A stretch of 64,000 nt of DNA from Acidimicrobiaceae bacterium (GTDB lineage Bacteria > Actinomycetota > Acidimicrobiia > Acidimicrobiales > RAAP-2). The stretch is from contig PMLV01000090.1 in the NCBI GenBank assembly GCA_003160635.1, forward strand, positions 35,698 through 99,697, written 5' to 3'. Positions 15,309 through 18,245 of the stretch are shown here, piece by piece. Position 1 is the first letter of the stretch; each line of letters opens with the position of its first letter. The translations under genes and the position numbers were made by a program. The notes below the pieces were generated by a model. The model searched no databases. It was not told the origin of the DNA and was given only the letters and a program-made list of their open reading frames with translations.

Positions 15309-15314
15309 TACAAT
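15309..15314 (+). promoter_or_regulatory. Candidate -10 (TACAAT) for the leader-ORF/MgtE/NRAMP operon
   Basis: TACAAT in GC-rich intergenic region; no clear -35. Confidence 0.45.
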
Positions 15315-15381
15315 GGACGCGCGACCGATCCGTGGTCCGTGACGCCCCCGGTACGGGGCACGAGTGGAAGGAGGTGTGGCC

Positions 15382-15444
15382 ATGCGTAGGGACGAACCTC
15401 CCAGTAGCACTACCGGCACACCTCGCCACATCTGCGCCGGCTGA
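15382..15444 (+). CDS. Putative regulatory leader peptide MRRDEPPSSTTGTPRHICAG
   Basis: ATG preceded by AAGGAGGT (15368-15375) with 6-nt spacing; 20 codons, stop TGA; absent from ORF track because of length. Confidence 0.6.
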   Translation: MRRDEPPSSTTGTPRHICAG

Positions 15445-15597
15445 GCTGCTGGTTTCTCCAGCCTGCCCGGTCGTCACCGCAGGTGTCGGGATAGAGAAGG
15501 TGCTGGTCTCAGCCTCTTTCGGTCGCCTCCACATCGCAGGCGCCGCTCTGTTCATTCCGACCTGACCGCCTTGTGGCGCCGCACAGGAGGTAGCACC

Positions 15598-17007
15598 TTG
15601 GCCTCAACGCCGCCGGCAGGATCACCTGCTCGTTCCACGCATTCCCTACCCCGCCGACGGGAGACCCCCGATCGCCCGGCGCACCAGCGCCGCCGCCGCA
15701 CCCGCCGCATTCTGGCGTCCGAGGGCGTCTTCGACTCCATCGTCTCCCTGGCGGGCATCCTTGGTCGGCCGGTCACGAATCAGACCGGTCAGGAGATCGG
15801 CCGACTCGACGACATCGTGGCCCGTTGGTCAGATGGACAGACCTACCCGCCCGTGACCGGGCTCGTCATACGGGTGGGGCGCCGTTTGGCCTTCGTCCCC
15901 GCGTCGGCCATCGATCGCATCGCCCACGCCGAGGTGCTGCTGCGCTCGGCCCGACTCGACCTGCGCGACGTCGTACGCCGCCCCGGCGAGGTGCTCCTGG
16001 CCAAAGACGTCCTCGACCATCAGCTGGTCGACGTCGACGGCGTGCAGGTCATTCGGGCCGCCGACCTCTACCTGGCCGAGGTGCTCGGGCGCATACGCCT
16101 CGTCGGCGCCGACGTGTCGACGTCGACGCTGCTGCGCCGGCTGGGGCCACGCCGTTGGCGCCCGTCGCCCACACCCGATCGCGTCATCGACTGGGCCGCC
16201 ATCCAGCCCTTCGGCGAGTCCACCGATTCCGTGGACGGGGCCACCCAGGTCCGCCTCCGGACCACCCACGAGGGACTGCACCGCTTGCGCCCCGGCGAGT
16301 TGGCCGACCTGTTGGAGGACCTTCGCCGGGACGAGCGCAGGGAGCTGCTGGCGGCGCTGAGCCCCGACGAAGCGGCCGACGCGCTCGAAGAGATGCAGGC
16401 TGACGACCTCGAGCAGCTCCTGCGGGAAGCCGATCCCGACGAGGCGGCACGACTTCTCGTGGCCATGGAGCCCGACGAAGCGGTCGATGCCCTCCGCGAC
16501 CTTCCGGCGGCGACGCGGGGCGAGTTGTTGCGACGCATGGCGCCCAGCGCGGCAGCCGCGTTGCGCGAGCTGCTCGGATATCCCGAGGACGAGGCGGGCG
16601 GCATCATGACGTCCACGCTCGTCGTGGCCATCACCGACGACACCGTGACCGAGGTGGTCGATCAACTGGCCGATGCCCGCGGTCACGACGTCGATCTCGA
16701 CGCGGTGGCCGTGGTGAACAAGGAGGGATCGTTCGTCGGGGACGTCACGCTGCTCAAGATCCTCTTGACCATGCAGACCTCACCCGATTCGCGCATCTCC
16801 TCCCTCCTGGTCGATGAAGATGTCGTCACGGTGCGGCCGCGCGCGTCGGCCGACGAGGTGGCCCGGCAGCTGGTCGAGGCCCGCAGGCTCTCACTGGTCG
16901 TCGTCGACGACGATGGGCGACCCATGGGGCGGATCCTGGCCGACGACGTGCTCGACGCGCTCGTACCCACGAAGGGTCGGTTCCATTTTCCCAAGCTTCT
17001 GACGTGA
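15598..17007 (+). CDS. PRC-barrel + MgtE N-terminal + CBS domain protein, without MgtE transmembrane domain
   Basis: ILGRPVTNQTGQEIGRLDDIV (PRC), repeated DEAADALEEM/DEAARLLVAMEPDEAVDALRDLP (MgtE_N), DEAGGIMTSTLVVA...(CBS); ends after CBS; AGGAGGT 6 nt before TTG 15598. Confidence 0.85.
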   Translation: MASTPPAGSPARSTHSLPRRRETPDRPAHQRRRRTRRILASEGVFDSIVSLAGILGRPVTNQTGQEIGRLDDIVARWSDGQTYPPVTGLVIRVGRRLAFVPASAIDRIAHAEVLLRSARLDLRDVVRRPGEVLLAKDVLDHQLVDVDGVQVIRAADLYLAEVLGRIRLVGADVSTSTLLRRLGPRRWRPSPTPDRVIDWAAIQPFGESTDSVDGATQVRLRTTHEGLHRLRPGELADLLEDLRRDERRELLAALSPDEAADALEEMQADDLEQLLREADPDEAARLLVAMEPDEAVDALRDLPAATRGELLRRMAPSAAAALRELLGYPEDEAGGIMTSTLVVAITDDTVTEVVDQLADARGHDVDLDAVAVVNKEGSFVGDVTLLKILLTMQTSPDSRISSLLVDEDVVTVRPRASADEVARQLVEARRLSLVVVDDDGRPMGRILADDVLDALVPTKGRFHFPKLLT

Positions 17008-18245
17008 AGGCCCCGATTCACCGGAGAGGCCTCGTCTACCTCGCCGCCGCCGGGCCCGGACTGATCGCCGCCGCCGCCGGCAACGATGCGGGTGGCGTCG
17101 TCACCTACTCCTCGGCCGGCTCGGACTTCATCTACCGCACGCTCTTTCTGATGGTGCTGATCACCATCGCCTATGTCGTCGTGCAGGAGATGGTGGCGCG
17201 GCTGGCCGTGTACACCGGTAAGGGCTTGGCCGCACTCATCCGCGAGGAGTTCCCGCTGCGCATGACGGCCTTCGCCGTGACGGCCTTCGCCATCGCCAAC
17301 ATCGGGCTCATGGTCACCGAATTCGGCGGCATCGCGACGGCGTTCGACCTCTTCGGCGTCTCGCGCTATCTCTCGGTGCCCATCGCCGCGCTGGCCATCT
17401 GGAGCCTGGTCCTGTTCGGGTCGTACCGCTACGCCGAGCGGGTCTTCCTGTTGTTGACACTCGTCTTCGTGGCCTACCCGATCGCCGCTGTGCTCGGCCA
17501 TCCCAATTGGCACCATGTCGCCAGCAACACCTTGTGGCCCCACTTCATTGCCAACAAGTCCTTCCTCCTGCTCGCAGTGGCACTCATCGGGACCACCATC
17601 ACCCCCTACATCCAGTTGTACGAGGCCGGTGCCGTGGTGGACAAGGGTGTCAAGCCCGAGGACTACCGGTTCCAACGGGTCGACGCCATCGTCGGGGCGG
17701 TCCTGGCTGCGTTCGTCGCCATGTCGATCATCGTGGCCACCGGCGCCACCATTGGAGGGTCGGGTCCGCTGACCTCGGCCGCACACGCCGCCCATGCACT
17801 ACGCCCGGTGGCGGGTCCAGCCGCGGAGGTGTTGTTCGGACTCGGGCTCCTGGGCGCCTCAGCCCTGGCGGCGGCCGTGGTGCCACTTTCCACGTCCTAT
17901 GCGGTGGCCGAGGCGGTCGGAGTGGAACGGTCCGTCTCCTCCAGCTTTCGCCAGGCTCCGCTCTTCCTGGGGCTCTTCACGGCCCAGATCCTCCTCGGCG
18001 CGGCCGTGGTGCTGGTGCCGGGCAACCTGATCACCTTGATTTTGAACACGCAGGTCCTCGAAGGCGTAATCACGCCGATGACCCTGGTGCTGATCCTGGT
18101 GCTCGCCAACCGGCGTTCCCTGCTGGGCCCGGCCGCGAACGGGCCATGGGCCCGCTGGCTGGGTGGGGTGTCGATTCTCTCGGTCGCCGCCGTGGCCTCG
18201 GTCTTCGTGGTCCTTACGGTCCTGGGGTGGTTCGGCCTCAATTGA
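17004..18245 (+). CDS. NRAMP-family divalent metal transporter (non-canonical, NRMT-like)
   Basis: GPGLIAAAAGNDAGGVVTYSSAGSDF; TM6 region GTTITPYIQLYEAG lacks the canonical MPH; GTGA overlap with upstream gene. Confidence 0.85.
   Translation: MKAPIHRRGLVYLAAAGPGLIAAAAGNDAGGVVTYSSAGSDFIYRTLFLMVLITIAYVVVQEMVARLAVYTGKGLAALIREEFPLRMTAFAVTAFAIANIGLMVTEFGGIATAFDLFGVSRYLSVPIAALAIWSLVLFGSYRYAERVFLLLTLVFVAYPIAAVLGHPNWHHVASNTLWPHFIANKSFLLLAVALIGTTITPYIQLYEAGAVVDKGVKPEDYRFQRVDAIVGAVLAAFVAMSIIVATGATIGGSGPLTSAAHAAHALRPVAGPAAEVLFGLGLLGASALAAAVVPLSTSYAVAEAVGVERSVSSSFRQAPLFLGLFTAQILLGAAVVLVPGNLITLILNTQVLEGVITPMTLVLILVLANRRSLLGPAANGPWARWLGGVSILSVAAVASVFVVLTVLGWFGLN

Follow-up and report, generated by a model that had tools for sequence, protein, structure and literature searches.

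The window analyzed here, a stretch of 64,000 nucleotides from an Acidimicrobiaceae bacterium, carries a putative Mg2+-transporter operon with a short ORF upstream of it (Table 1). The order of the genes, one for MgtE N and CBS domains and then one for an NRAMP transporter, had been proposed in a first-pass annotation and is borne out by Pfam (PF03448 and PF00571, then PF01566). The start of the first of them is placed at the TTG at 15598 since a relative (L003) has ATG there behind the same Shine-Dalgarno sequence (SD). As read from the sequence, the leader ORF, MRRDEPPSSTTGTPRHICAG, occupies 20 codons of the + strand from the ATG at 15382 to a TGA at 15442-15444 and is preceded by a strong SD, AAGGAGGT (15368-15375). 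Its codons 4-7 are GAC GAA CCT CCC (D-E-P-P), the next is AGT, and ACCTCC spans 15396-15401. To the base, the first-pass annotation had correctly placed the ORF, its SD, these codons and the segments complementary to each other.

Table 1. Features of the leader and of the transporter operon in the window
Feature	Position	Strand	Basis
TACAAT, -10-like box of the promoter predicted for the leader transcript	15309..15314	+	sequence; TANNNT enrichment upstream of leader SDs
Leader Shine-Dalgarno AAGGAGGTG (SD1)	15368..15376	+	sequence; GG-GG SD also in other EPPS leaders
5' arm of the SD1-sequestering hairpin (GAGGTGTGGCC)	15371..15381	+	fold; swap test SD1:distal uORF
Leader ORF MRRDEPPSSTTGTPRHICAG, then stop; EPPS family	15382..15444	+	conserved family
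Invariant core Glu-Pro-Pro-Ser, here GAA CCT CCC AGT, with CCY as first Pro codon and AGU as Ser codon	15394..15405	+	leader comparison
3' arm of the hairpin (GGCACACCTC), within leader codons 12-15	15415..15424	+	fold; swap test
AGGAGGT, Shine-Dalgarno of the operon's first gene (SD2)	15585..15591	+	sequence; SD and ATG aligned in L003
MgtE_N/CBS-domain gene, whose product is a putative cytosolic Mg2+ sensor for the NRMT operon	15598..17007	+	Pfam PF03448, PF00571; orthologs
NRAMP-family transporter, NRMT-type binding site (NDAGG ... GTTITP)	17004..18245	+	Pfam PF01566; DxxG-TxxA/T signature (PMC8806188)

With N-D-A-G-G in TM1 and G-T-T-I-T-P in TM6, the NRAMP protein of the window matches the combination of DxxG (TM1) and TxxA/T (TM6) that is the signature of NRAMP-related Mg2+ transporters, NRMT (PMC8806188). 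Its binding site predicts an NRMT of Mg2+ type, the substrate being less than certain because an Acidobacterium member is reported to have carried mainly Mn2+ (PMC4072509). Operons in which an MgtE fragment accompanies nrmT are found under an M-box riboswitch in Clostridia and Deltaproteobacteria (Shin 2014, PMC4072509). At the leader, no known riboswitch was found by Rfam in the window, its relatives or the other EPPS leaders tested, the M-box covariance model (RF00380) had no match in the window or the other EPPS leaders tested, and no intrinsic terminator was found in the leader. In a set of 102 leaders, TANNNT -10-like boxes are enriched 30-60 nt ahead of the leader SD. A promoter is accordingly predicted upstream of the uORF, and a transcription start downstream of 15444 is unlikely; no full sigma-70 consensus was found for the leader transcript.

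Leaders of orthologous operons include MSRGEPPSSDAG.., MSRGEPPSRTAG.., MRGDEPPSTAG.., MRRDEPPSRWLV.., MEQGEPPSARG.., VTRGEPPSSMD.., MKRGEPPSRTG.. and others, with MSRGEPPS also among their early motifs, and their C-termini are unrelated to each other. The expectation of a conserved short ORF with a proline-containing N-terminus is thus realized, as the ORF and its E-P-P codons are kept in relatives and the same leader is present before genes for NRMT, CorA and MgtE. However, of the Asp-Glu-Pro-Pro highlighted in the first-pass annotation only part is kept: Pro-Pro is retained, but the Asp4 position varies (D/G/S/T/others) and one clade has Lys in place of Glu, with Pro(CCY)-Pro-Ser(AGU) being invariant. 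That this clade (g9) has a non-coding hairpin instead was considered and rejected; with a CTG start and K for E it reads CTG AAA CCC CCN AGT ACC, i.e. KPPS, and one member has ATG (MKPPSTT).

A pattern search of 150 family genomes yielded further copies directly upstream of NRAMP genes; among these is VKSEPPSTWRPPSRPRC (G000:C167), a second EPPS leader of the genome from which the window comes. A class-wide survey of 58 NRAMP upstream regions found the leader in 23, and all 23 NRAMP genes with leader have the NRMT-type D-A/S-G-G motif, none of those with leader among the 58 loci being of canonical type. There are also several NRMTs that share this binding motif and lack both the leader and any Rfam riboswitch, and a CBS gene of the window's genus (L005) is without a leader; in the genome of the latter (G045), VNLDEPPSTTC.. 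is before a separate NRMT gene (L035). In another leaderless case, an NRMT of the same order, an M-box (RF00380, 139.9 bits; L104 1975-2143, G206:C132) is in the leader's place, i.e. the leader position is filled by a known Mg2+ sensor. The window's genome itself has five NRAMP genes (loci G000:C167:89376-89408, G000:C74 and G000:C126), two with an EPPS leader, two of NRMT type for which no leader was found (L119, L120) and one canonical. Its assembly, at 6.9 Mb with 8% contamination, compares with 3.4-4.8 Mb for genus-mates and may combine sequence from two or more genomes.

More widely, 85,462 species genomes were scanned with the pattern GGAGGTG-N(3-9)-RTG-N(6-9)-GAR-CCN-CCN-AGTA, of which neighboring genes are no part, and at least 118 stretches were recovered. 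Among the matches listed, the leader is in actinobacterial records only, bar two suspect labels, the taxa being Acidimicrobiia, Promicromonospora, Isoptericola, Cellulomonas, Geodermatophilus, Klenkia, Blastococcus, Micromonospora, Pseudonocardia, Nakamurella and other actinobacteria. The suspect records, MAGs labeled Acidobacteria and Bifidobacterium breve (L167, L218, L219), carry typical acidimicrobial EPPS-CBS-NRMT loci and are probably misbinned or mislabeled. Where enough downstream sequence makes a locus evaluable, as it does for 77 of the 80 listed, a Mg2+ transporter is downstream in 76 (41 CBS/NRMT, 8 NRMT, 26 CorA and 1 MgtE), the lone exception, L187, being a rearranged locus at the site also numbered L015. 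The CorA and MgtE identities were confirmed by Pfam for the three proteins tested. In the de-duplicated full set the sole unassigned target (L238) is a corA start cut by a contig end, and a phylum scan gave two more MgtE targets (L264, L265). The phylum scan left the Ser codon free, and the nine hits that lack the EPPS(AGU) core have no transporter of these kinds in their vicinity. At the rearranged site (G033:C47, L015/L187), an intact MKRGEPPS leader faces the 3' end of an opposite-strand CBS gene, as if the operon had been rearranged, and an NRAMP homolog is 1.9 kb farther along.

Given its recurrence in orthologous operons and in many actinobacterial genera before Mg2+ transporter genes, the leader of the window is far beyond chance. 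EPPS leaders constitute a previously unrecognized family, present before at least three unrelated kinds of Mg2+ transporter across Actinobacteria; searches of the open-access literature turned up no previous account of them, and a report elsewhere is possible.

Selection on reading frame and codons is pronounced. The start is in frame with the core in 110 of 110 distinct sites, though spacings of 7 and 8 were equally allowed by the pattern, and ATG, GTG and CTG interchange as start codons. A stop closes frame 0 a median of 12 codons further on, as against 27-28 in the other frames. In 144 leaders the core is [E/K/D]-Pro-Pro-Ser, with Glu in 123, Lys in 18 and Asp in 3. For the first Pro codon, 122 of 130 leaders use CCC or CCU, compared to 61 +- 5.4 expected from codon usage of the downstream genes, the other eight having CCG or CCA; the second is unconstrained (CCY in 68 of the 130). 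The Ser codon of the core is always AGU, the sole Ser codon encountered when all were allowed, and AGT accounts for 3% of Ser codons in the genes downstream of leaders. EPPS leaders are accordingly ORFs of translated type, under strong codon-level selection and with a C-terminus free to vary, and it is almost certain that they represent real translated leaders of Mg2+ transporter genes. The idea of +1 frameshifting to yield a conserved product was entertained and rejected, frames +1 and +2 being without constraint on stop position.

The fixation at base level of AGU and CCYCC, together with stable leader folds in several clades, is what might be expected were CCYCCNAGU a motif of a riboswitch-like RNA element in which the ORF is incidental. 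However, the unfailing frame relationship of core and start, the constant presence of an SD and a start whose identity is exchangeable, the wobble of both the P2 and Glu codons and an early stop in frame 0 only, along with the absence of an Rfam match and a whole window leader that is not unusually stable (z -0.44), make it very unlikely. Action in trans of the product on the transporter, in the manner of small membrane regulators, is scarcely credible: while the N-terminus is conserved, lengths range from ~11 to 36 amino acids, C-termini are unrelated, no hydrophobic segment is present in the listed sequences, and selection at synonymous level on Pro and Ser codons would be needless for a trans-acting peptide. 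The combination of free C-termini and synonymous-level selection speaks for a cis-acting leader, and the leaders very probably regulate the Mg2+ transporter genes in cis via translation of EPPS.

The signal is a separate issue. Invariance of Pro-Pro-Ser and dispensability of the acidic residue (K in one clade) would suit a polyproline or EF-P stress sensor, with a stall at EPP-S reporting translation capacity (supply of EF-P, Pro-tRNA or Ser-tRNA) instead of Mg2+ and the importers being merely its targets. This is unlikely, though, as such a sensor should also turn up ahead of genes of other kinds and all targets are Mg2+ transporters, from three families; moreover, restriction of the first Pro codon to CCY is no requirement of EF-P. 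That the targets belong to three unrelated families of Mg2+ importer points to Mg2+ as the signal, and it is probably sensed, whether directly or by way of tRNA modification or the stability of ribosomes. Co2+ or Mn2+ are also possible substrates of CorA and NRMT.

Sensing through tRNA modification would have the leader gauge Mg2+ by way of m1G37. TrmD needs Mg2+ to form m1G37-tRNAPro, and in its absence CC[C/U]-C stalls or slips +1; a CC[C/U] codon with C after it is the shift-prone site, dependent on m1G37, that has been invoked for mgtL (PMC6335274). In 122 of 130 leaders P1 is CCY and is followed by C, with P2 free, which is the m1G37-dependent CC[C/U]-[C/U] site of mgtL (PMC6335274). Against it are the eight of 130 with CCG or CCA, and it leaves AGU unexplained; it is possible but rather less than probable. 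It is a sub-mechanism of Mg2+-responsive leader translation, the best explanation, and not an exclusive alternative to it. For the AGU requirement itself no published model was found, and no known Mg2+ mechanism explains its invariance.

With regard to RNA structure, GAGGTGTGGCC (15371-15381) is complementary to GGC/ACACCTC (15415-15424), and the resulting hairpin is in both the MFE and the centroid fold. For its assessment across the family, duplex energies of native pairs were compared with those of pairs swapped between divergent leaders, a test that only partly removes shared ancestry. The proposed pairing of the leader SD with the distal uORF held up in two classes, native pairs being better in the CBS class (p 0.004 with 29 representatives, p < 0.0001 with 36) and in the NRMT class (p 0.002 or less). 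It had no support by the swap test in the CorA class, so that either the classes do not share one RNA switch or the hairpin at SD1 is dispensable. The further proposal, that a uORF segment pairs with the SD of the downstream gene, was rejected (p 0.68); instead, a match between that SD and the spacer is supported (p 0.0003, all classes combined). The flat negative for gene SD with distal uORF suggests that the swap test is not inflated by composition.

Two additional pairings were considered as general features and rejected. For SD1 with the leader's own Pro codons (GGAGG:CCUCC), the commonest first Pro codon, CCC, gives A-C mismatches. A long-range stem between uORF end and spacer is clear by eye in Promicromonosporaceae corA leaders, has p 0.02 in the CorA class and is absent elsewhere. 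In those corA leaders (L142, L165, L188, L140), the uORF end, CCGCGACTG, pairs with CAGTCGCGG ~100 nt on, near the gene start, and Promicromonospora has a compensatory change (CCGCAGC/GCTGCGG) in this stem, a possible attenuator stem.

The most likely reading, by analogy, is of a cis-acting, Mg2+-responsive leader peptide that would work like MgtL or CorL while being unrelated to them in sequence. The leader quite probably couples progress of ribosomes over Glu-Pro(CCY)-Pro-Ser(AGU) to expression of the Mg2+ importer. When cellular Mg2+ is low, ribosomes would slow or drop off at EPP-S, and when it is ample they would reach the uORF stop. The leader RNA would alternate between SD1 paired with the distal uORF and SD1 open, and between the gene SD paired with the spacer and open. 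In the direction and with the signal that we infer, low Mg2+ would turn the transporter genes on, with an output that may lie in translation, in Rho-dependent attenuation or in both; poor leader translation at low Mg2+ turning the importer on is the logic of MgtL (PMC11282234; PMC11552253). The MgtL-like, Mg2+-linked leader originally envisaged for the window thus survives in its conservation and its Mg2+-transporter targets, but Asp4 is non-conserved and pairing of the uORF with the gene SD is not supported. Tentatively, and with considerable reservation, codon identity may be a phylum-wide actinobacterial Mg2+ sensor, CCY-CCN-AGU making leader translation Mg2+-dependent (by m1G37-tRNAPro and/or ribosome stability) and the same cassette serving before three unrelated families of Mg2+ importer, independently of MgtL.

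Ribosome-based sensing of Mg2+ by leader peptides is known from enterobacteria, with MgtL, CorL and MgtQ. If the present reading is true, sensing of this sort either evolved anew or was retained in a second phylum, around a core that differs, is simpler and depends on specific codons, and Actinobacteria without an M-box have a candidate Mg2+ regulator. One regulatory logic would then link genes for NRMT, CorA and MgtE, predicting Mg2+ as the substrate of the window NRAMP, and ~140 natural leader sequences would be at hand to decide among the models for MgtL, namely acidic ribosome destabilization, polyproline stalling and m1G37 of tRNAPro.

Among systems known to act on comparable genes, the M-box (ykoK) places the same operon type, mgtE-fragment/nrmT, under a Mg2+ sensor (PMC4072509), but it is a direct RNA aptamer. 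The mycobacterial M-box-linked uORF2 (Rv1805A) is likewise a conserved actinobacterial small ORF in a Mg2+-linked leader and has a conserved Pro; however, it is downstream of an M-box and is described as mycobacteria-specific (PMC12810186). MgtQ, of Salmonella mgtCBRU, is also a very short uORF, whose destabilizing acidic codons alter the stem-loops that mask a Mg2+ transporter's RBS (PMC8092293), but it has 8 codons, is between mgtC and mgtB, does not need its Pro codon and lacks EPPS. A further parallel is MgtL of Salmonella and E. coli mgtA, with CorL of corA, a short uORF before a Mg2+ importer with early Glu/Pro (EPDP in MgtL). In E. coli mgtA and corA the uORF SD is in a stem in one of two folds (PMC11552253, PMC11282234), to which the SD1 stem supported in the CBS and NRMT classes, but not in CorA, may correspond. 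The motif EPDP is absent from all leaders listed, their core being EPPS, and common ancestry with MgtL is not detectable; MgtL is enterobacterial and controls MgtA, whereas the EPPS leader is actinobacterial, has EPP-S(AGU) with one conserved Pro-Pro, and would control NRMT, CorA or MgtE.
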